In this document: positions 3,687 through 23,277 of the stretch, piece after piece
Numbering within the stretch: position 1 is the stretch's first letter
Layout: every line of letters starts with the position of its first letter
Source: Pseudomonas triclosanedens
GTDB taxonomy: Bacteria; Pseudomonadota; Gammaproteobacteria; Pseudomonadales; Pseudomonadaceae
DNA length: 64,000 nucleotides
Assembly (NCBI RefSeq): GCF_026686735.1
Contig: NZ_CP113432.1
Location: 992,001 to 1,056,000, forward strand
Reading direction: 5' to 3'
Made by a program: the position numbers and the translations under genes
The notes under the pieces: model-generated
Database searches by the model: none
Told to the model about the DNA's origin: nothing
What the model saw: only the letters and a program-made list of their open reading frames with translations

Positions 3687-5351
3687 ATGGCTCAATACGT
3701 CTACACCATGCATCGGGTCGGCAAGGTAGTGCCGCCCAAGCGTGAAATCCTCAAGGACATCTCCCTGTCGTTTTTCCCGGGCGCCAAGATCGGCGTGCTG
3801 GGCCTGAACGGCGCGGGTAAATCCACCCTGCTGCGCATCATGGCCGGCGTCGACACCGAGATCGAAGGCGAAGCCCGCCCGATGCCGGGCATCAATGTCG
3901 GCTATCTGCCGCAGGAGCCGAAACTCGATCCGCAAGCCACCGTGCGCGAGATCGTCGAAGAGGCGGTCGGCCAGATCAAGGCCGCCCAGGCTCGCCTGGA
4001 CGAGGTCTACGCCGCCTACGCCGAACCGGACGCCGATTTCGATGCCCTGGCCGCCGAGCAGGCCAAGCTCGAGGCCATCCTCCAGGCGTCCGACGGACAC
4101 AACCTGGAGCGCCAGCTGGAAGTCGCCGCCGACGCCCTGCGCCTGCCGCCGTGGGACGCCAGGATCGAGCACCTCTCCGGTGGTGAGAAGCGCCGCGTCG
4201 CACTGTGCCGCCTGCTGCTGTCCGCCCCGGACATGCTGCTGCTGGACGAACCGACCAACCACCTGGACGCCGACTCCGTCGCCTGGCTGGAGCACTTCCT
4301 CCACGACTTCCCGGGCACAGTGGTAGCGATCACCCACGACCGCTACTTCCTCGACAACGTCGCCGGCTGGATCCTCGAACTGGACCGTGGCCACGGCATC
4401 CCGTTCGAAGGCAACTACTCCGGCTGGCTGGAATCCAAGGCCAACCGCCTCGCCCAGGAAGCCAAGCAGGAAGCCTCCCACGCCAAGGCCATGAAGGCCG
4501 AGCTGGAGTGGGTTCGCCAGGGCGCCAAGGGCCGCCAGGCCAAGTCCAAGGCTCGTCTGCAGCGCTTCGAGGAACTGCAGTCGCAGGAATTCCAGAAGCG
4601 CAGCGAGACCAACGAGATCTACATCCCGGCCGGTCCGCGCCTGGGCGACAAGGTCATCGAGCTGCACAACGTCAGCAAGGGCTACGGCGATCGCGTGCTG
4701 ATCGACAACCTGTCGCTGAGCATTCCCAAAGGCGCCATCGTCGGCGTGATCGGCGGCAACGGCGCAGGTAAATCCACCCTGTTCCGCATGCTGACCGGCA
4801 AGGAACAACCGGACTCGGGAACCATCGAGATCGGTGAAACCGTGCAGATCGCCAGCGTCGACCAGAGCCGCGACAGCCTGGATGGCTCCAAGACCGTCTG
4901 GGAGCAGGTTTCCGACGGCTTCGAGCAGATCAAGATCGGCAACTACGAAGTTCCGTCGCGCAGCTATGTCGGTCGCTTCAACTTCAAGGGCGGCGATCAG
5001 CAGAAGTTCGTCAAGGATCTGTCCGGTGGTGAACGTGGCCGCCTGCACCTGGCCCTTACCCTGAAGCAGGGCGGCAACGTGCTGCTGCTCGACGAACCGT
5101 CCAACGACCTCGATGTGGAAACCCTGCGTGCGCTGGAAGAAGCGCTGCTGGACTTCCCGGGTGCCGCCATCGTGATTTCCCACGATCGCTGGTTCCTGGA
5201 CCGCATCGCCACCCACATCCTCTCCTACGAGGACGATGGTAAGGTGACCTTCTTCGAAGGTAACTACACCGAGTTCGAAGCAGACCGCAAGAAGCGACTG
5301 GGCGATGCTGCCTCGCAGCCACACCGCGTGCGCTACAAGAAGCTGGCGTAA
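3687..5351 (+). CDS. ettA: Energy-dependent translational throttle protein EttA (ABC-F ATPase)
   Basis: A 554-residue soluble protein with two ABC ATPase domains and no membrane segments. The first Walker A is GLNGAGKST (near residue 40) and the second GGNGAGKST (near 357). Each domain has an LSGGE signature and a Walker B ending in LLLDEP. A charged linker near residues 250-300 joins them. This is the ABC-F layout; EttA binds the ribosomal E site and couples translation initiation to ATP/ADP level. Both catalytic glutamates are present. The start MAQYVYTMHRVGK is the family start. An in-frame upstream ATG at 3645 would add 14 unrelated residues and was rejected. A strong terminator follows directly. 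PAO1 PA4595 is the likely counterpart. Confidence 0.96.
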   Translation: MAQYVYTMHRVGKVVPPKREILKDISLSFFPGAKIGVLGLNGAGKSTLLRIMAGVDTEIEGEARPMPGINVGYLPQEPKLDPQATVREIVEEAVGQIKAAQARLDEVYAAYAEPDADFDALAAEQAKLEAILQASDGHNLERQLEVAADALRLPPWDARIEHLSGGEKRRVALCRLLLSAPDMLLLDEPTNHLDADSVAWLEHFLHDFPGTVVAITHDRYFLDNVAGWILELDRGHGIPFEGNYSGWLESKANRLAQEAKQEASHAKAMKAELEWVRQGAKGRQAKSKARLQRFEELQSQEFQKRSETNEIYIPAGPRLGDKVIELHNVSKGYGDRVLIDNLSLSIPKGAIVGVIGGNGAGKSTLFRMLTGKEQPDSGTIEIGETVQIASVDQSRDSLDGSKTVWEQVSDGFEQIKIGNYEVPSRSYVGRFNFKGGDQQKFVKDLSGGERGRLHLALTLKQGGNVLLLDEPSNDLDVETLRALEEALLDFPGAAIVISHDRWFLDRIATHILSYEDDGKVTFFEGNYTEFEADRKKRLGDAASQPHRVRYKKLA

Positions 5352-5365
5352 GCCGCTTCTGCTTG

Positions 5366-5398
5366 AAAACGGGGCCTTCGGGCCCCGTTTTCGTTTCT
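5366..5398 (+). terminator. Intrinsic terminator of ettA
   Basis: A perfect 11-bp hairpin, AAAACGGGGCC with loop TTCG, lies 15 nt after the ettA stop and is followed by a T-rich tract. The stem is symmetrical enough to also end the converging gene at 5417. Confidence 0.9.
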
Positions 5399-5416
5399 TG
5401 GTCCGCTCGTGCCTGC

Positions 5417-5713
5417 TCAGCGACTGCGCTTGAGATCGTCCAGGGCGCGGCTCTGATCTTCCAACTGGCGCTTGAGTGAGTCGATTTGTCGCGCCTGCTC
5501 CTGCAGCGTTCGTTGCTGCTGCTCCAGTTGTTGCGTCATGCGCTGCAGGTCGTCGCTGCTGAACCTCGATTTGTGGATAACTTCGCTGTCGAATGTATCT
5601 GCCACCAGCAGCGCGCCGGAATCGGTGAAGTTACCGAGTTTCATGGCTGCCTGAGTGGGCAGGGTGACGCCGCAGGAAAGGGCGGCGAGGAGTATGGCGG
5701 TGCGAAGGCGCAT
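5417..5713 (-). CDS. Small exported coiled-coil protein, unrecognised
   Basis: A 98-residue protein. Residues 1-23 form a signal peptide (basic start, hydrophobic AILLAALSCGVTL, cleavage expected after TQAA). The C-terminal half, about residues 48-98, is a Gln/Arg/Leu-rich heptad-like segment that should form a coiled coil. ATG 5713 has AGGA about 8 nt upstream; the ATG at 5722 sits too close to the same AGG. The gene converges on ettA and diverges from gdhA. I do not recognise a named family, and a periplasmic or envelope role is inferred only from the signal peptide. Confidence 0.75.
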   Translation of the reverse strand: MRLRTAILLAALSCGVTLPTQAAMKLGNFTDSGALLVADTFDSEVIHKSRFSSDDLQRMTQQLEQQQRTLQEQARQIDSLKRQLEDQSRALDDLKRSR

Positions 5714-5806: not shown

Positions 5807-7264
<1,458 letters not shown>

Positions 7265-7280
7265 CCTCGCCTGCCGCATG

Positions 7281-7312
7281 AAAAACGGGCCCGGTGGGCC
7301 CGTTTTTCTTTC
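7281..7312 (+). terminator. Intrinsic terminator of gdhA
   Basis: AAAAACGGGCCC and GGGCCCGTTTTT form a long perfect stem with a GT loop, then T-rich sequence, 17 nt after the gdhA stop. Confidence 0.9.
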
Positions 7313-7413
7313 TGCTCAATGCGCGCCGTGCCGAGGCCAGTCAGCGGGCCGGCTGTTGGTCCGGCACCGTTATCGCAGGCAAAGTCCTGTGCTGCGCGCG
7401 CCTCGGGCGTGCC

Positions 7414-8445
7414 TCATTCCATCGGCCGTGGCGTGGTCGCCGTGCTCGGTGGCAGCAATGGGTACTCCACCTTGGGCTGCTTGCCGGTGACGGTCTTGAG
7501 GAAGGCGACGATATCGCCGACTTCTTCGGTGTTGAGCTGCTTGCCAAGCTGCGCGGAACCCATGATCGTCACCGCTTCCTCCAGGTCCCATACCTGTCCG
7601 CTGTGGAAGTACGGAGCGGTCAGCGCAATGTTGCGCAGCGGAGCTGCACGGAACACGTATTCGTCGTTCTGCGTCTTGGTCACCTCGAAGCGGCCCTTGT
7701 CGCCGGTGGGGAGGATCTTGCCGTCGGGCTTCTTCACCAGGCCGAATGGGAAATACGCCTGGCCGCCGAGGTTCACGCCGTTGTGGCAACTGATGCAGCC
7801 GGCGCTCATGAAGGTTTGCAGGCCCTTCTTCTCCTTGGCGTCGAGTGCCTTGTCGTCACCTTTCAGGTACAGGTCGAAGCGCGAGTCGGGGGTGATCAGG
7901 GTCGATTCGAACGCCTGCAGAGCGCGCGCCATATTGTCGAAGCTGACCGGCTTCTTGTCGGCAGGGAAGGCTTGCTCGAAGGCGGTTACGTACTCGGGCA
8001 TGCTGGCGAGCGTGGCCTCGACGTTCTTCGGCGTGTTGTGCATTTCAACAGGGTTCTGCACCGGCCCCTTGGCCTGTTCCGCCAGGTCCTTGGCGCGGCC
8101 ATCCCAGAACTGTGCGACGTTGAATACCGCGTTGAACACCGTAGGCGAGTTGCGCGCACCTTTCTGCCACGCGTGGCCGCTGGAGGCGGGGACGTTGTCG
8201 GCACCGCCGGTACCGATGTTGTGGCAGGTATTGCAACTGATCACATGGCTGGAGGACAGGCGTGGTTCGAAGAACAGCTGCCGACCCAATTCCACCTGCT
8301 TGGCGTCGAGCGTCTCGCTGGCTTGTTCCGGAATAGGTTTGAAGATGCTGTTGGCCTGGTCGCGCAACGCGTCGGCGTGAGCATTGGCGGCGGCGGTGCT
8401 GACTGCCAGCATCAGACTGCCCAGGGCCAGTTTCATGGGCTGCAT
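7414..8445 (-). CDS. ccpR: Cytochrome c551 peroxidase (diheme, periplasmic)
   Basis: A 343-residue diheme peroxidase that reduces hydrogen peroxide with electrons from small c-type cytochromes in the periplasm. A signal peptide ends near the ANAHA site. Two heme-binding CxxCH motifs are visible: CNTCH (near residue 77) and CISCH (near 222), matching high- and low-potential hemes. The IMGSAQLG segment supplies a methionine typical of the family. ATG 8445 has a clear AAAGGAG 6 nt upstream; the longer frame to 8490 lacks this and would put charged residues before the signal peptide. An ANR-type box lies 73 nt upstream, consistent with induction at low oxygen. PAO1 PA4587 is the counterpart. Confidence 0.95.
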   Translation of the reverse strand: MQPMKLALGSLMLAVSTAAANAHADALRDQANSIFKPIPEQASETLDAKQVELGRQLFFEPRLSSSHVISCNTCHNIGTGGADNVPASSGHAWQKGARNSPTVFNAVFNVAQFWDGRAKDLAEQAKGPVQNPVEMHNTPKNVEATLASMPEYVTAFEQAFPADKKPVSFDNMARALQAFESTLITPDSRFDLYLKGDDKALDAKEKKGLQTFMSAGCISCHNGVNLGGQAYFPFGLVKKPDGKILPTGDKGRFEVTKTQNDEYVFRAAPLRNIALTAPYFHSGQVWDLEEAVTIMGSAQLGKQLNTEEVGDIVAFLKTVTGKQPKVEYPLLPPSTATTPRPME

Positions 8446-9035: not shown

Positions 9036-10061
9036 TCAAGCCGCTGTGATTGTGATGTGTTGCCCACCCTCGGAGCGCTTCTGGCAATCGATGCGTACCG
9101 GCAGGAAGGCCTCGATGACTGCGCGATTGCTCAGCAGGTGATCGCTCAGCAGCGGCGTGCTGAAGCTTCCGCCGCCGGCGAGGGACATGGGCAGCAACAG
9201 TTGGTCTGCGAGATGTTCCTCGACGCTGGTGCCGCTCCCGCGCCAGTTTTCGGCATGGCGCAACGCCTGGCCGGCGACTCGCTCGGCGCTCACCCCGGAC
9301 TGTCCGAAGGCGCAGAATACGGCGGTCAGCCGCTCGCATTCGATTTCCAGCAGCAGGGCGTTGCCCGGCCCCTGGTCTTCCGGCAGGCGCACGACCTGTC
9401 TGGAGGCGGCATGCCAGCCGGTGTGCCGTCCAACCCGCTCCAGCTCGCGGTCCGCTACGTGACCGGGAATGGCGGCCAGCAACGCACGAGCCGAGCGTGA
9501 ACGTTCTGTACCGGCATCCGGCAGATGCAGCGGCAGCAACGCACCGGGCTCCAGTCGCACCAGCAGCTCACCGCCGCCAGCCGGCATGAAACCGTGGCGC
9601 AACACCTCGAAATCCACCTTCCCGCCCATGCGCCGCAATAGCGGCAGCCAACTGCGCTCGATGAATTCTGCCGGCGGTGCCAGCGGATTGTGGGTGCCGC
9701 CGCTGATCGCCAGGCTGCTCGGCCCGTCGGCGAACAGCAGTGCTGGCAGCAGTGTCTGCATTACCAGTACGGCGCTACCCGCGCTGCCGATGGCAAAGCG
9801 GTAGTCGCCGCCGCGAATGGCGCCGGGGTCGAAGGCCAGGCTGCGCGATCCAAGCTCCATACCTTCGACCGCCGCGCCACAGATTTCCGCCGCCGCCCGC
9901 ACGGCGGTCAGATGCTGGCGCAACAGCCCCGGCCGCGAACGGCGGCCTCGGATGTTGACGATGCGCAGCGGCTTGCCGGTGATCATCGATAGGCTCAGTG
10001 CGCTGCGCAGTATCTGCCCGCCGCCGTCGGCGCCGTCGAGTTCGATCAGGTGCTTGTTCAT
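9036..10061 (-). CDS. rtcA: RNA 3'-terminal phosphate cyclase RtcA
   Basis: A 341-residue RtcA that converts RNA 3'-phosphate ends to 2',3'-cyclic phosphates with ATP through a covalent histidyl-AMP intermediate. The family signature DGADGGGQILRSALSLS is at residues 9-25, and the VEEHLADQL segment near residue 286 holds the expected nucleophilic histidine. Length is normal (E. coli about 338). AAGGA stands 10 nt before the ATG. It is the last gene of the rtcB operon, following the HEAT-repeat gene by about 47 nt, and so should be under RtcR/sigma54 control. Its cyclic-phosphate product is a substrate for RtcB. Confidence 0.96.
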   Translation of the reverse strand: MNKHLIELDGADGGGQILRSALSLSMITGKPLRIVNIRGRRSRPGLLRQHLTAVRAAAEICGAAVEGMELGSRSLAFDPGAIRGGDYRFAIGSAGSAVLVMQTLLPALLFADGPSSLAISGGTHNPLAPPAEFIERSWLPLLRRMGGKVDFEVLRHGFMPAGGGELLVRLEPGALLPLHLPDAGTERSRSARALLAAIPGHVADRELERVGRHTGWHAASRQVVRLPEDQGPGNALLLEIECERLTAVFCAFGQSGVSAERVAGQALRHAENWRGSGTSVEEHLADQLLLPMSLAGGGSFSTPLLSDHLLSNRAVIEAFLPVRIDCQKRSEGGQHITITAA

Positions 10062-10108
10062 CTTGTGTAGTCCTTGTGTGCTCGCTCAGCCGGCCCGAGG
10101 CGGCGAGT

Positions 10109-11491
10109 TCAATCAATGCAGGTCAGGCTACCTTTGGGCAGTTGACCGGTCGCGACCAGTTGGCGGATTCGTTCTGCCAGCGCTTGCCGCTCGTCACGCG
10201 GTGTCAGTGGGTCCTGGCCTGCGTAGCGCTGATAGCTCCATGAGCGCAGTGCTTTCATCCAGTAGGTCGAGTCGGGTGCGTCGTCGATCTGCCGTAGCAG
10301 GTAGGCGAGGCGTTGCCAATACGCCAGTAGGTCGAAGATCGCTTCGCGGCGAGTCTCATCCAGCTCCCGCCAGTGTTGATCCAGGTAATGGCCGATCGGC
10401 CCCTGTAGGCTCTGCCAGGAGAGTTTGCGCAGCCGTTCGAGGGCGCCGCGGAATACCTTGGGCGAGGCGTGCTCCAACTGTTCGATGAAGGCCGGTAGCG
10501 CTCCGCCCTCCAACTGGGCGATGGCCGCCAGTCGGGTCCGCGTGTTGGCCGAACGCAATGCGACTTCGAGCCAGGCCGTCGGCACCGGCTTGCCAAGGGC
10601 TGCACTCAGGCCCAGCACTCCCAGCCATCGGGAGGTGGTCGTCGGCATTGTCCCGGATGTGCTTTGCAGCAGCACCTGTGCCGGTTCGACTCCTTCGCGT
10701 AGCGCATGCCAGAGCGCGATTGAGCGCACGCTCGCCGAACTATCCAGCAGCCCGCATTCAAGTGCCTCGAGAGGCGGCATCGGTTCTTTCATGAGGAGCC
10801 TGAGCGCCTTGCCGCGCACGGTCGTCGAAGCATTGGTCATGGCCGTGTGCAGCAGCGCCTGCCGGGGCGCGAGCGGCTGCTTTCGGGCAGCATCCACTGC
10901 CAGTGTGCGCACCACCGGGTCGGGATGGCGCAGCGCCTGCTCCAGCAGCGCTGCGGAGCCATCGCCCTCCGCCAGTACGCTGAAAAGCAGGTGCGAGGCC
11001 TGGCCGCGCAAGCCGAACCAGGCTGCCTTGACCTCCGCGGCATGCTCCGGTTTGGCCAGCAATGACTGCACTTTTTGCAGCAGGAAGCGATGATCGCCAC
11101 GTTGCTGACGGCTCAGCGCGAGTAACTGCGGCAAGTTCTGCAGGACCAGCGAAACCTGCTCATCGGCCAGGTAGCCTTCGATGCCTTGCAGAGCCTGTTC
11201 GCGTATGCCCGGCACCCAGTCGTTGGCGCGGGTGAGCAGTATGCCGAGCGCCTCCGCGGACCGCCGACGGGCCAGCATGCGCACGGCCAGTTCACGGACA
11301 TATCCGTTGTAGCTGCGGCTCCAGCCCGGCCAGTCCGTTTCAGGGGTGGCGTTCGCCAGCACGCTCAGTGCTTCGTTGACGCCATAGCAGGAGCGCTGCT
11401 GGCCCAGCCAGTTGCGCAGGGCTTGCGTCGTCTCGTCCGTGGGGTTGTCTGGCGAGCGCCTGCGCTCCAGCCAGTGTTTGAGTTGTTTCAT
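10109..11491 (-). CDS. HEAT-repeat protein of the rtc operon
   Basis: A 460-residue cytosolic all-helical protein. From about residue 60 to 400 it shows repeated helical pairs with HEAT-like patterns such as DPVVRTLAVDAARK, SASVRSIALWHAL and NTRTRLAAIAQL, so a superhelical scaffold is likely. No catalytic motif, signal peptide or membrane segment is visible. ATG 11491 has GAGGGAGA directly upstream; the open frame continues upstream to 11917 but there overlaps the 192-aa gene and has arginine/proline-rich out-of-frame character, so it was cut. It sits between the 192-aa gene and rtcA, matching PAO1 PA4584 by position. A role in binding RNA or the RNA-repair enzymes is inferred from operon membership only. 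Confidence 0.85.
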   Translation of the reverse strand: MKQLKHWLERRRSPDNPTDETTQALRNWLGQQRSCYGVNEALSVLANATPETDWPGWSRSYNGYVRELAVRMLARRRSAEALGILLTRANDWVPGIREQALQGIEGYLADEQVSLVLQNLPQLLALSRQQRGDHRFLLQKVQSLLAKPEHAAEVKAAWFGLRGQASHLLFSVLAEGDGSAALLEQALRHPDPVVRTLAVDAARKQPLAPRQALLHTAMTNASTTVRGKALRLLMKEPMPPLEALECGLLDSSASVRSIALWHALREGVEPAQVLLQSTSGTMPTTTSRWLGVLGLSAALGKPVPTAWLEVALRSANTRTRLAAIAQLEGGALPAFIEQLEHASPKVFRGALERLRKLSWQSLQGPIGHYLDQHWRELDETRREAIFDLLAYWQRLAYLLRQIDDAPDSTYWMKALRSWSYQRYAGQDPLTPRDERQALAERIRQLVATGQLPKGSLTCID

Positions 11492-11562
11492 ATCTCCCTC
11501 TCTGTGCGCGCTCAATGGGCGGGCGCGCATCCACAGTCCTTTGTTCTTGGCGACGTCTGTTG

Positions 11563-12141
11563 TCAGTCCGTCGCGCTGGCGGCCAGCGCGGACAATGTTC
11601 GTCGTCGCGGGTTGTACAGGGTGAGGCACCAGATACCCCACCATTCCTTGCCGTCGTCGAAATAGCAGCTCCAGTTGCTGCGATGCGGTTCGACACCGCC
11701 ATTGCCGACCCAGTCGAGCACCTGCAGGCCTTCGTCCGGATACAGCCGCAGCGCCTGCACCCATTCGCGGAAATCCGCGATCTGCAGCTGGGTGCCGTAG
11801 GGCGGGTTGCGGAAGGCGCGGCACAGCGGGCCGTCGTCGCGGCCCAGCTCGCGCACCGCCTCGATATCGAGTGCCTGCGGGCGGGCCCGGGCCAGGTCGG
11901 GTGTCAGGTCCGCCCATTTATGGGTGGCGTATTGCGGGTAGCGGGCGATGACGTCCGCCTGCCACTTGCGCGCACGTTCCTGGATGGATTCGAACAGCAT
12001 CTGCAACGCCAGGCGATGTTCTGCTTCGCCGGGCGTGGCGGTCGGGTCGAGTGTCAGCACGCGGAAGTCGAAGACACAGCGTTCCTGTTCCAGGCGGCTG
12101 CGCAGCTCCTGCATGCGCTGGTTTTCCAAGGGTTGCAGCAT
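11563..12141 (-). CDS. Conserved hypothetical protein of the rtc operon
   Basis: A 192-residue protein with no signal or membrane segment. The first half is helical and charged. The second half contains an aromatic-rich stretch, including SCYFDDGKEWWGIWCLTLYNP near residues 159-179, that looks like a compact beta domain. I do not recognise a catalytic motif. It starts 9 nt after the rtcB stop, so translation is probably coupled. By position it matches PAO1 PA4582/4583-region genes. Its place between rtcB and rtcA suggests an accessory function in RNA repair, which is inference. Confidence 0.8.
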   Translation of the reverse strand: MLQPLENQRMQELRSRLEQERCVFDFRVLTLDPTATPGEAEHRLALQMLFESIQERARKWQADVIARYPQYATHKWADLTPDLARARPQALDIEAVRELGRDDGPLCRAFRNPPYGTQLQIADFREWVQALRLYPDEGLQVLDWVGNGGVEPHRSNWSCYFDDGKEWWGIWCLTLYNPRRRTLSALAASATD

Positions 12142-12150
12142 GTCCTTACC

Positions 12151-13365
12151 TCATCCTTTCACGCATACCACCTGGCGCAGGGTATGCAGTACTTCAACCA
12201 GCTCGCGCTGGGCATCCATCACGGCATCGATGTTCTTGTAGGCCATCGGAATCTCGTCGATCACGTCCTTGTCCTTGCGGCATTCGACGTGGGCGGTGGC
12301 GCGCACCTGGTCCTCGACGCTGAACAGCTTCTTCGCCTTGGTACGGCTCATCGTCCGGCCGGCGCCGTGGCTGCACGAGCAGAACGCTTCTTCGTTTCCC
12401 AGGCCGCGGACGATGAAGCTCTTGGCTCCCATCGATCCCGGAATGATGCCGAGCTGGCCCTTCTGCGCGGACACCGCACCCTTGCGGGTCACTAGTACCT
12501 CTTCACCGAAGTGGCGTTCCTTCTGCACGTAGTTGTGGTGACAGTTCACCGCTTCCAGGCTTGCCTCGAACGGCTTGCGGATGACTTGCCGTGCGGCGGC
12601 GATCACCGCACGCATCATCAGTTCGCGGTTCTGCCGGGCGAAGTCCTGGGCCCAGCCCACGGCTTCCACGTAGTCGTCGAAGTGCTGGCTGCCCTCTTCG
12701 AAGTAGGCCAGGTCGCGGTCCGGAAGGTTGGCGATGTGCTGGCGCATATCGGCCTGGGCCAGTTCGATGAACAGGTTGCCGATGGCGTTACCCACACCGC
12801 GCGATCCGCTGTGCAGCATGAACCAGACGCGGTTGGCTTCGTCGAGGCAGACTTCGATGAAGTGGTTGCCGGTGCCTAGAGTTCCCAGGTGCTTGCGGTT
12901 GTTGGTCTTCTCCAGTTTCGGGTGCTTGTCGGTAATCACCTTGAAGCGGCCGGCCAATGCCCGCCACGCGTCGTCGGCGTGCTCGGGCACGTCTTCCCAG
13001 GCGCCCTGGTCGCGGCGGCCGAAGGTCTTGCCGTGAGGCACGGCCTTTTCGATGGCGGTGCGCAGGCCGTGGAGGTTGTCGGGCAAGTCCGAGGCCACCA
13101 GCGAGGTGCGCGCGGCGATCATCCCGCAGCCGATATCCACGCCCACGGCGGCCGGGATGATGGCCCCCCTGGTGGGAATCACGCTGCCGATGGTCGAGCC
13201 CTTGCCCAGGTGCACGTCCGGCATTACGGCCAGGTGCTTGTAGATGAAGGGCATCTTCGCGGTGTTCATCAGTTGCTGCTTGGCGTCCTCTTCAACTGGT
13301 ACGCCCTGGGTCCAAAGCTTGATGGGTTTGCCGTTGGCGACTTCCAGCAGTTGGAAGGTTTTCAT
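12151..13365 (-). CDS. rtcB: RNA-splicing ligase RtcB
   Basis: A 404-residue GTP- and Mn-dependent ligase that joins RNA 3'-phosphate or 2',3'-cyclic-phosphate ends to 5'-OH ends. The metal and nucleotide residues are in place: DIGCGM (Cys near 80), GTGNHFIEV, HSGSRGVGN, VNCHHNYV and CSHGAGRTMSR with the histidine that is guanylylated. E. coli RtcB is 408 aa. Start choice is ATG 13365, which has AGAGAG at good spacing; ATG 13371 (two codons longer) is nearly as good. It is the first protein gene of the sigma54 operon and is preceded in the same transcript by the structured RNA at 13399-13526. Confidence 0.97.
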   Translation of the reverse strand: MKTFQLLEVANGKPIKLWTQGVPVEEDAKQQLMNTAKMPFIYKHLAVMPDVHLGKGSTIGSVIPTRGAIIPAAVGVDIGCGMIAARTSLVASDLPDNLHGLRTAIEKAVPHGKTFGRRDQGAWEDVPEHADDAWRALAGRFKVITDKHPKLEKTNNRKHLGTLGTGNHFIEVCLDEANRVWFMLHSGSRGVGNAIGNLFIELAQADMRQHIANLPDRDLAYFEEGSQHFDDYVEAVGWAQDFARQNRELMMRAVIAAARQVIRKPFEASLEAVNCHHNYVQKERHFGEEVLVTRKGAVSAQKGQLGIIPGSMGAKSFIVRGLGNEEAFCSCSHGAGRTMSRTKAKKLFSVEDQVRATAHVECRKDKDVIDEIPMAYKNIDAVMDAQRELVEVLHTLRQVVCVKG

Positions 13366-13398
13366 GTTCATCTCTCTTTTTTCCTGTGTCGCTGGCCC

Positions 13399-13526
13399 TG
13401 CGTGGCGACGAGTCGTGGTGAAACAGGCGGCGCGCTCCATTCCTTTGAGCTACGGCCCCAGAGAGCCGGCGGGAGTTGAACCCGCAACTTTGCCGATCTG
13501 TAGTTCCACCGGTATTCGCCACCGCA
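13399..13526 (-). ncRNA. Y-RNA-like (YrlA-type) permuted tRNA mimic in the rtcB leader
   Basis: Reading the minus strand, the ends pair first: TGC-G-GTGGCGA (13526-13516) with TCGCCAC-GCA (13408-13399). GGTGGAA (13510-13504) then pairs TTTCACC (13423-13417). After a CTA bulge, CAG (13500-13498) pairs CTG (13426-13424) and CGGC (13495-13492) pairs GCCG (13431-13428) at the anticodon-stem position. Inside this are a T-arm (13485-13469) with stem GCGGG/CCCGC and loop TTCAACT, an acceptor-like stem CGGCTCT (13468-13462) with GGGGCCG (13459-13453) joined by only two bases, then TA and a D-arm GCTC/GAGC (13450-13434) with loop AAAGGAATG. The 3' half precedes the 5' half, no CCA is encoded and there is no anticodon loop. 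Tight linkage to rtcB mirrors the Salmonella rsr-yrlBA-rtcBA locus. The 5' end is probably near 13540. Not checked with a covariance model. Confidence 0.82.
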
Positions 13527-13549
13527 ATGCCAAGAATTCCTGGAGATAG

Positions 13550-13565
13550 AGCAGGCGACGTGCCA
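13550..13565 (-). promoter_or_regulatory. Sigma54 (-24/-12) promoter of the rtc operon
   Basis: The minus strand reads TGGCACGTCGCCTGCT, with GG-N10-GC exactly spaced; only one base departs from the TGGCACG-N4-TTGCW consensus. Transcription should begin near 13540, just ahead of the structured RNA. The divergent neighbour rtcR encodes the matching activator. Confidence 0.93.
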
Positions 13566-13594
13566 GTTTTGATTCCGGTAACCTTACTTTTTAT

Positions 13595-13607
13595 TAAATA
13601 TTTGATT
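13595..13607 (-). promoter_or_regulatory. IHF site between activator sites and rtc promoter
   Basis: The minus strand reads AATCAAATATTTA, a full match to WATCAA-N4-TTR, in a very AT-rich tract about 55-67 bp upstream of the predicted start. This is the usual place for IHF bending at sigma54 promoters. Confidence 0.7.
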
Positions 13608-13649
13608 TTTAAAGATTAAATTTATATTCAGGCAAAGTATTCGAATTTC

Positions 13650-13666
13650 CAGGAGGACTTTTCCTG
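13650..13666. promoter_or_regulatory. Candidate RtcR upstream activating site
   Basis: CAGGA-N7-TCCTG is a perfect 5-7-5 inverted repeat about 110-126 bp upstream of the predicted rtc start, the expected distance for a sigma54 activator. Assignment to RtcR is inferred from position. Confidence 0.45.
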
Positions 13667-13710
13667 TCCATTTATAGATATTAATGGATAAGATTTTATC
13701 TAAATGGATA
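13667..13710. repeat. Inverted and direct repeats before rtcR
   Basis: TCCATTTA (13667-13674) and TAAATGGA (13701-13708) form a perfect 8-bp inverted repeat. AATGGATA also occurs twice as a direct repeat at 13683-13690 and 13703-13710, exactly 20 bp (two helical turns) apart. The array ends 12 nt before the rtcR start, where a repressor or autoregulatory protein could act. Confidence 0.55.
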
Positions 13711-13722
13711 GAGGGTGACTTC

Positions 13723-15327
13723 ATGCCAGCAGGACGCAAGACTGTCGCTATCGGGTTTCTCGGCTCTACGCTGGATCGCGTCGGCAAGGGCGCGTCGCGC
13801 TGGCAGAAATGGCGGCCCACGGTTGGGCTGTGCCAGCAGCAGGACCTGCTGATCGATCGCCTGGAGCTGATCCACGGCCTGGATGCGCGGGATGTCAGCC
13901 TGGCCGAGCGTATTGCCGCCGATGTGCGGCACGTTTCTCCTGAGACCGAGGTTCGGCTGCAGCCCATGTCGCTGCGCAATCCGTGGGATTTCGAGGAGGT
14001 CTACGGCACGCTGCACGATTTTGTCGGCGGATATGCCTTCGATACCGAGCACGAGGATTACCTGGTACACATCACCACCGGGACCCACGTTGCGCAGATC
14101 TGCTGGTTCCTCCTGACCGAAGCGCGCTACCTGCCGGCAAGGCTGGTGCAGACCTCGCCGTCGCGGCGCAAGGACGAGGCGCGGCAGCCGGAAGGAACGG
14201 TGACGCTGATCGATCTCGATCTGTCGCGCTACGACCGCATCGCCACGCGCTTCCGGCGTGAGCAGGAGGAAAGCCTGGCTTTCCTCAAGTCCGGCATCGC
14301 CACGCGCAATGCCGATTTCAACCGCTCCATCGAGCAGATCGAACGAGTCGCTGGACGCTCCCGTGCGCCGATGCTGCTGATCGGCCCGACCGGCGCGGGC
14401 AAGTCGTTCCTCGCCCGTCGCGTGTATGAACTCAAGCGGGCACGGCACCAGTTCCAGGGACGTTTCGTCGAGGTGAACTGCGCGACCCTGCGTGGCGACG
14501 GCGCGATGTCAGCATTGTTCGGTCATATCAAGGGTGCCTTCACCGGTGCGCAGAGTGCTCGCGAGGGGCTGTTGCGTGCGGCGGATGGCGGCATGCTGTT
14601 CCTCGACGAGATTGGTGAACTGGGCCTGGACGAGCAGGCCATGCTGCTGAAGGCTATCGAGGAAAAGCGCTTCTTTCCGCTGGGTTCGGACCGTGAGGTG
14701 GGCAGCGATTTCCAACTGATCGCCGGTACTCACCGCGATCTGCGCGAACGGGTCGTCGACGGACTGTTCCGCGAGGACCTTTTCGCCCGCATCAATCTCT
14801 GGACTTTCGACCTGCCGGGGCTGGCTGGGCGCCGCGAGGACATCGAGCCGAACATCGACTTCGAACTGGAGCGCCACGCCCGCGAACAGGGGCGTCTGGT
14901 ACGCTTCAACCGGGAGGCGCGGACGCGCTACCTGGATTTCGCCAATTCGGCGCAGGCGCTGTGGAATGGCAATTTCCGCGAGCTGTCGGCGTCCATCACG
15001 CGCATGGCGACCCTGGCCGACAGCGGGCGTATCGACGAGGCGCTGGTGGAGGAGGAGATCGGCCGGCTGCGTCGCTCCTGGGGCGCGGCGCAGCCAGAAG
15101 GCGAAGTGGAGCGCCTGCTGGGCGAGGGCGCCGAGGCGCTGGACCTGTTCGATCGTCTGCAACTGGAGGCGGTGATCTCCATTTGCCGGCAGGCGCGCAG
15201 CCTGTCCGACGCCGGACGCCAGTTGTTTGCGGCGTCACGCCAGGAGAAGCAGAACCCCAACGATGCCGACCGTTTGCGCAAGTACCTGGCGCGCTTCGGG
15301 CTGGACTGGGCGGCGCTGAAGAGTTGA
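13723..15327 (+). CDS. rtcR: RtcR, CARF-domain sigma54 activator of RNA repair
   Basis: A 534-residue bacterial enhancer-binding protein (E. coli RtcR 532 aa). Residues 1-180 are the RtcR-type CARF sensory domain, starting TVAIGFLGSTLD and containing HITTGTH. The AAA+ domain follows, with Walker A GPTGAGKS (near residue 223), the sigma54-contacting GAFTGA loop (near 270) and Walker B GGMLFLDEIGEL. The C-terminus ends in a helix-turn-helix-like region. ATG 13723 has GAGGG 7 nt upstream; an in-frame ATG at 13684 was rejected because it precedes the conserved start. It diverges from the rtcB operon. CARF domains bind nucleic-acid-derived ligands, and RNA ends produced by RNA damage are the likely signal. 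Confidence 0.96.
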   Translation: MPAGRKTVAIGFLGSTLDRVGKGASRWQKWRPTVGLCQQQDLLIDRLELIHGLDARDVSLAERIAADVRHVSPETEVRLQPMSLRNPWDFEEVYGTLHDFVGGYAFDTEHEDYLVHITTGTHVAQICWFLLTEARYLPARLVQTSPSRRKDEARQPEGTVTLIDLDLSRYDRIATRFRREQEESLAFLKSGIATRNADFNRSIEQIERVAGRSRAPMLLIGPTGAGKSFLARRVYELKRARHQFQGRFVEVNCATLRGDGAMSALFGHIKGAFTGAQSAREGLLRAADGGMLFLDEIGELGLDEQAMLLKAIEEKRFFPLGSDREVGSDFQLIAGTHRDLRERVVDGLFREDLFARINLWTFDLPGLAGRREDIEPNIDFELERHAREQGRLVRFNREARTRYLDFANSAQALWNGNFRELSASITRMATLADSGRIDEALVEEEIGRLRRSWGAAQPEGEVERLLGEGAEALDLFDRLQLEAVISICRQARSLSDAGRQLFAASRQEKQNPNDADRLRKYLARFGLDWAALKS

Positions 15328-23146: not shown

Positions 23147-23194
23147 TATCCGAAGACTCGCTGCGGAGCGCCGTCCCTGGCTGCTCCGCAGGAG

Positions 23195-23219
23195 AAGGGG
23201 TGCTCCGGCGCCCCTTTTG
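23195..23219 (+). terminator. Terminator after fklB
   Basis: GGGGTGC and GCGCCCC form a GC-rich hairpin followed by TTTTGT, 50 nt after the fklB stop. Confidence 0.65.
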
Positions 23220-23277
23220 TGCATCCGCCTCCCGGGCAGCGGAGCACCGGCGGCGCGTCCGGCACCGCCCAGTGGCC

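Follow-up and report, generated by a model that had tools for sequence, protein, structure and literature searches.

A YrlA-type Y RNA heading an rtc operon in a Pseudomonas genome in which no Ro protein was found

A YrlA-type Y RNA lies directly behind a predicted RtcR/sigma54 promoter in a 64,000-nucleotide stretch of Pseudomonas DNA (the window), in a genome in which no gene for the Ro protein Rsr, the Ro60 orthologue, was found. The overall explanation we favour, at a probability of roughly 0.55, is that this RNA was retained after a loss of about 2.1 kb and acts without an Rsr ring. What is new is the setting, a Y RNA that appears to have been retained, at least twice, after loss of the Ro protein. 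The RNA family itself is already known and is in Rfam, and the YrlA match as first described is a correct rediscovery.

The RNA is encoded on the minus strand, reads from 13522 to 13399, and is almost certainly a YrlA-type Y RNA. Rfam model RF02553 matches positions 13399..13522 over its full length (model 1-114 of 114; E 2.5e-14 for the whole window) with 71.1 bits, barely over the curated gathering score of 69. A covariance model built from 26 sequences of the same family gives 100.7 bits, the window copy being one of its 26 seeds. A sequence-only reading of this DNA had proposed a circularly permuted, Y-RNA-like tRNA mimic at 13399..13526 and had suspected that a published Y-RNA model might cover it; RF02553 does so and confirms the permuted mimic, agreeing with the end at 13399 and placing the other end at 13522, 4 nt shorter. 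The permuted tRNA-like domain appears in the order T-arm, acceptor-like stem, D-arm in both the Rfam alignment and the fold. The T-arm with its TTCAACT loop (13469..13485, GCGGG-TTCAACT-CCCGC read from 13485) and the 4-bp D-arm with GG in its loop AAAGGAATG (13434..13450, GCTC-AAAGGAATG-GAGC read from 13450) are where that reading had drawn them, and its acceptor-like stem of 7 bp closed by two bases is better replaced by one of 6 bp with the four-base loop UCUG (13453..13468). Of the two scans it had suggested, the one for YrlA succeeded and the one for tRNA did not; a tRNA or tRNA pseudogene at 13399-13522 was rejected, with neither ARAGORN nor the Rfam tRNA model (RF00005) matching there.

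The minimum-free-energy fold of the 124-nt RNA (-52.3 kcal/mol, z -2.63, 2 of 200 shuffles equally good) contains the end-joining stem, the inner helices, the T-arm, the acceptor-like stem and the D-arm; its inner helices (GUGG/CCAC and ACAG/CUGU) are slightly unlike the consensus pairing GGUGGAAC/GUUUCACC. With two relatives folded singly, the YrlA fold came out incomplete (z -0.43 and -1.07), and the structure therefore rests more on covariation than on energies. In a MAFFT alignment of 26 relatives including the window, the paired share of cells is 94.6%; changes on both sides occur at 14 of 26 pairs compared with 7.0 in shuffles, and none of 500 shuffles reached 14. The helix that joins the RNA ends (helix 1), also part of the earlier proposal, has 5 of its 6 pairs changed in this compensatory manner, and the stem covariation among homologues on which that proposal had been staked is strong. 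One of five covariation measures, the number of further pair types, showed no excess (24 versus 23.2 in shuffles). The acceptor-like stem was misplaced by MAFFT, leaving 2 of the 26 pairs missing from our own covariance model. The T-loop bases are invariant in the 26 relatives, which include the window and two rsr-less copies of the g14 genomes described below.

Upstream of the RNA, a sigma54-type -24/-12 promoter motif (TGGCACGTCGCCTGCT, 13550..13565, minus strand) matches 10 of 11 consensus positions, a level found in 6 of 2000 shuffled gap sequences, and ends 27 nt before YrlA, in agreement with the sequence-only claim that the RNA would be the first product of an rtc operon. The minus strand then continues, 33 nt beyond YrlA, with rtcB (RNA ligase, 12151..13365 with an in-frame alternative start at 13371; PF01139, 437 bits), a 192-aa protein (11563..12141) with no Pfam or NCBIfam match and with relatives in several such operons, a HEAT-repeat protein (10109..11491; PF13646), and rtcA (RNA 3'-phosphate cyclase, 9036..10061; PF01137, 251 bits; NF003246, 456 bits against a cut-off of 352). 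The sigma54 activator gene rtcR is divergent, on the plus strand (13684..15327; PF06956, 288 bits; NF038308, 847 bits against a cut-off of 650). Divergent rtcR, the presence of both rtcB and rtcA, and a sigma54 motif in between make this an RtcR-controlled rtcBA operon. Motifs matching at least 9 of 11 positions were found 89-149 nt from rtcR in 81 of 82 RtcR loci, the lone exception being L070, of which the first 260 nt only were scanned. Since positions 13300-13720 contain neither a sigma70-type promoter nor a terminator-like site on the minus strand (the only such site, on the plus strand, lies inside rtcB), the rtcB transcript would presumably begin with YrlA, which would then be trimmed out. 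The genes for the HEAT-repeat and 192-aa proteins stand between rtcB and rtcA, and window positions 9036-13365 gave no match to the nucleotidyltransferase-like gene that is common between rtcB and rtcA in relatives. Further along the window, an RsmW small RNA (RF02809, 78.8 bits) lies on the minus strand at 23153-23274.

The picture of a permuted YrlA mimic heading an RtcR-type rtc operon thus holds; what the sequence-only reading had missed is that the searches below found no rsr in the genome. PF05731 (TROVE) has 0 matches in this genome, which is one contig given as 100% complete, at E of at most 0.001. PF05731 is too weak on Pseudomonas Rsr (20-34 bits), and a protein search with the Rsr of a related genome, G003 (locus L103), was therefore added. 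This query found no match in the window's genome at E of at most 1e-10, a threshold at which it matches 26 of 398 genomes of the family at identities down to 54%. Because Rsr was not found, a Ro-type ribonucleoprotein is probably unavailable in this genome. The RF02553 gathering score is reached in 20 of the same 398 genomes, 16 of which have Rsr; the four without it are the window's genome, G335, G368 and G388. Several side observations came from these searches. Elsewhere in the window's genome there is one of several matches of about 28 bits to YrlA model positions 26-82, and no slipin of the rtc type (three matches, at 22-31% identity only). G018 has a 36.4-bit YrlA match at a locus (L104) without any of the rtc genes sought, and the rsr match at G317:C9:71221-72828 comes in two overlapping pieces, possibly owing to a frameshift.

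The usual association of Y RNA with rsr was examined in the best 80 of at least 571 RtcR relatives, loci picked by RtcR and not by Y RNA; the seeds of the survey model come from related genomes, some perhaps of the same species. The interval between rtcR and rtcB contains rsr in 32 loci, a slipin-like gene in 24 and neither in 23, and one further locus (L094) has no rtcB match in its stretch. With our own model, Y RNAs of at least 37 bits, a line chosen after the scores were known, occur in 32/32 rsr loci, 0/24 slipin loci and 0/23 loci with neither, the rsr status of this last group having been scored between rtcR and rtcB. On these counts a Y RNA normally accompanies rsr and vanishes with it, and the window is an exception: the 32 rsr loci have Rsr together with one to ten Y RNAs of at least 37 bits (at least 60 bits in 29 of the 32), whereas no Rsr was found for the window. 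The maximum of ten such matches belongs to L097 (Andreprevotia lacus, 5884-8033, between rsr and rtcB). At gap position 171 of L037, a locus with no rsr and no Y RNA match, TTGTCGCC resembles a Y RNA 3' end before rtcB and is possibly a remnant. In L024, L030, L031, L093, L097 and L100, rtcB is preceded by a small, basic protein (about 115-145 aa; MKSNKQRRREIR..., MISGKQKRAAIMARR...). The rtcR match of L145 (G205; 4085-5664) is split in two, perhaps because the gene is broken or through a sequencing error.

Comparison with G003, whose rtcB and rtcR products are 97% and 94% identical to those of the window, suggests how the window arrangement arose. G003 has the order promoter, rsr, Y RNAs, YrlA, rtcB, its promoter and rtcB being separated by rsr and five T-arm RNAs; like P. 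khazarica (L028), it is a pseudomonad with an rsr - Y RNA array - rtcB operon and a promoter in a similar place. The two sequences are collinear from rtcR via the promoter to CTATCTC, and collinearity resumes at GAATTCTTGGCATTGC, just before the last YrlA of G003, the copy that matches the window's, and runs on to rtcB. The gap between rtcR and rtcB measures 318 bases in the window versus 2461 in G003, so that about 2.1 kb is absent from the window. On balance, we infer an ancestral operon of the order rsr - Y RNAs - rtcB, of which the window YrlA is the copy nearest rtcB, and rsr was very probably lost in the window lineage. The polarity reads more simply as a loss in the window, rsr arrangements being widespread; this reading is drawn from the arrangements and not from a tree.

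Rsr was not found in G335, G368 or G388 with the G003 query at E of at most 1e-10 either. Their loci (L139-L141) run from the promoter motif through the first rsr codons and a Y RNA of which only the 3' half is left to a complete YrlA and rtcB, and one deletion joint is common to all of them, a loss shared by three species. In the G335 stretch, bases 1-81 match the promoter and the rsr start and bases 89-321 match the rtcB side, two regions separated by about 2 kb in genomes that have rsr. When 398 genomes of that genus were searched at the DNA level, only G335 and G388 matched across the joint; G368 came from the 398-genome family sample, outside this genus search. Among 95 relatives of G335, only G335 and G398 exceed the RF02553 gathering score. 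Because the genus labels (g14 for these three, g1 for the window) and the deletion joints differ, at least two separate losses of rsr would have kept the rtcB-proximal YrlA. In L139-L141, rtcR is immediately preceded on its own strand by a 197-aa ORF (MRVLSVLLAMLWAAFAHAEPS...).

Whether such a YrlA still functions without Rsr we judge to be evenly poised, and the strongest rival holds that rsr was lost recently and that the RNA is a functionless leftover heading to decay, a serious possibility that we place somewhat short of even odds. Sequence conservation speaks against a mere leftover. Of 123 sites aligned between the window and G003 copies, 24 differ, only 2-3 of these in paired columns, and all 28 comparable G003 pairs are kept in the window, whereas random placement keeps a mean of 21.6 pairs, and all 28 in 0.035% of 20000 trials; the pair list for this comparison was drawn from an alignment containing both copies. 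The fourfold sites of rtcB are 73% identical between the two genomes, and part of the constraint may predate the rsr loss. With 93.7, 87.4 and 85.7 bits, the remaining rsr-less copies rank 2, 7 and 9 by best score among the 20 YrlA genomes, and the g14 loss, common to three species, is therefore not very young there. Between G335 and G368, YrlA differs at 7/118 sites, the fossil half RNA at 13/82 and rtcB fourfold sites at 43/198, placing YrlA below both rtcB (p 1e-4) and the fossil (p 0.03). The values for G368 and G388 are 7/120, 13/81 and 34/198 (p about 0.03 for YrlA versus fossil). Between G335 and G388 (2/118, 1/82 and 38/202), the comparison gives no sign of YrlA evolving more slowly than its fossil neighbour, and the low divergence of this pair may stem from recombination.

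Other observations favour decay. A Y RNA is kept in 0 of the 23 loci with neither rsr nor slipin, the window copy ranks 20th and thus lowest by best score among the 20 genomes over the Rfam cut-off, and one D-stem pair is broken in the YrlA of G368. In addition, a basal-region motif at RNA positions 7-11 reads AATAC in the window (13512..13516, minus strand) where AATGC stands elsewhere. AAUGC is present in 67 of 69 Y RNAs of at least 60 bits from rsr-bearing genomes and is changed in 3 of the 4 rsr-less copies, to AAUAC in the window and to AGCGC twice. From the counts, the chance of at least 3 of 4 being changed is about 6e-4, a figure for which the 69 include near-identical copies and G335 and G388 share their change; AAUAC also occurs in one Y RNA of the rsr-bearing P. 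sp. PDM15 (L056). The basal stem of a Y RNA holds Rsr according to the available part of a review (PMC8394870), and AAUGC is likely to be the Rsr contact, as judged from our set of sequences and not from any paper. If so, a changed motif with a kept tRNA-like part is what an Rsr-free role would produce and, equally, what early decay would produce. We lean slightly towards a stand-alone tRNA mimic over a relic, with a role as cis leader third.

As a cis leader, the fold would have no role beyond structuring the 5' end of the rtcB mRNA, for its stability, processing or translation. The 33-nt distance to rtcB, the lack of a minus-strand terminator-like site or sigma70-type promoter in 13300-13720, and the retention of precisely the rtcB-proximal copy in rsr-less loci would all suit such a role, but in 23 of the 80 loci a promoter motif of this kind precedes rtcB with no Y RNA match in between, and T-loop bases for which a mere hairpin has no need are invariant in the 26 relatives; we consider this explanation improbable. 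A normal Y RNA working with an unrecognised Ro-like protein is the least probable alternative. A very divergent Ro could escape a Pfam model that is weak even on Pseudomonas Rsr, but the genome also gave no match to a Pseudomonas Rsr query that reaches 54% identity within the family.

For YrlA acting without the Rsr ring, the loss, promoter use, processing, partners and function that we infer would run as follows. A loss of about 2.1 kb with rsr and the other Y RNAs would have left YrlA directly behind the RtcR/sigma54 promoter. Upon tRNA damage, RtcR would become active and the promoter would fire, yielding a transcript that begins with YrlA and continues into rtcB, from whose leader YrlA would be trimmed. 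The tRNA-like head, with its T, acceptor-like and D arms, may then engage proteins that handle tRNA, such as PNPase and tRNA-modifying enzymes, with no Rsr ring, and YrlA would serve as a tether or decoy during tRNA repair. The sequence-only reading had offered a decoy or ligand of RtcR or RtcB as a possible role.

The available parts of three papers on Salmonella and related systems provide the background. Fragments of tRNA that carry 2',3'-cyclic phosphate ends activate RtcR in Salmonella, where YrlA, reportedly left uncut by the anticodon nuclease, was proposed as a possible competitive inhibitor of that enzyme (PMC7790460). Salmonella YrlA is a substrate of DusA and TruB, and its tRNA-like part binds PNPase (review, PMC8394870); PNPase and these modifying enzymes could still be reached by the window YrlA without Rsr. 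The Salmonella operon, of order rsr-yrlB-yrlA-rtcB-rtcA (PMC9879122), shares with the window the full-length RF02553 match, the permuted T, acceptor-like and D arms on an end-joining stem, the rtcB-proximal place of YrlA and RtcR/sigma54 control, whereas the window lacks rsr and yrlB and has YrlA first after the promoter motif. RYPER (Rsr - Y RNA - PNPase; Deinococcus, Salmonella) has its RNA part present in the window, but as described in the part of PMC8394870 at hand it should not form in the window species, in which no Rsr was found.

In the parts of the literature available to us, the roles of bacterial Y RNAs are largely open and Y RNAs are treated as parts of Ro particles. Genomes with YrlA and no rsr separate the RNA from Ro and so offer a direct handle on what the tRNA-like RNA alone does in tRNA damage and repair; should rsr-less YrlA prove to be expressed and needed, Y RNAs would have to be seen more widely than as Ro tethers. 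Among the matches listed in a search of open-licence papers by titles and abstract openings, none dealt with Y RNAs in Pseudomonas without Rsr, and earlier literature may already describe Rsr-less Y RNAs.

Slipin-type rtc operons (for example L023) have tRNA mimics of another kind behind the promoter motif, in the place that YrlA has in the window. T-arm units occur there in 17 of 24 slipin loci (for example L023:9513-9712), two units in 16 of the 17, and are lacking in 7. When ARAGORN was run on the 24 loci and L146, 16 loci yielded 26 units: it typed 9 as ordinary tRNAs and the remaining 17, whose anticodon has two bases, as undetermined tRNAs. This count leaves aside a tRNA-Lys at another place in L099, and ARAGORN called no unit in L091 and L101 despite their T-arms. 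The Rfam tRNA model gave five units in four slipin loci. Many of these RNAs have shortened anticodon loops, and in an alignment of 17 sequences 9 of 23 predicted pairs are changed on both sides (no shuffle control), with compensatory changes in the acceptor and anticodon-like stems. Y RNAs were rejected for these operons on the T-arm/acceptor/D-arm junction, which is that of tRNA-like units in normal order; the weak matches to our own model in 13 of the 24 loci (24.7-35.7 bits) were set aside, and partial Rfam YrlA matches of 30-35 bits next to rtcR are of the same tRNA-like kind. Unlike the window YrlA, the slipin-operon RNAs are in canonical order, often tandem, not permuted and without a Y basal stem.

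The SPFH gene PaFlo8 is located in an rtc locus, and the accessible portion of the 2026 text describing it (PMC13086221) does not contain the word 'tRNA'; for tRNA-like RNAs of slipin operons, the same kind of search (open-licence papers, titles and abstract openings) gave no paper among the matches listed. Permuted YrlA outliving rsr in two lineages, taken with the canonical-order RNAs of slipin operons, raises the tentative and rather doubtful possibility that RtcR-driven repair operons carry tRNA mimics that act alone and not only as Ro cargo, as decoys, tethers or feedback ligands resistant to anticodon nucleases. Between the tRNA-like RNAs and slipin (about L023:9513-9570), inspection by eye showed a hairpin, CTGCCC..GGCAG or TACCCT..AGGTAG, with a GCAACACCCGC-like stretch after it, and the same hairpin and GCAACACCCGC-like stretch were seen, again by eye, in L068, L074, L077 and L083, which are without tRNA-like RNAs.
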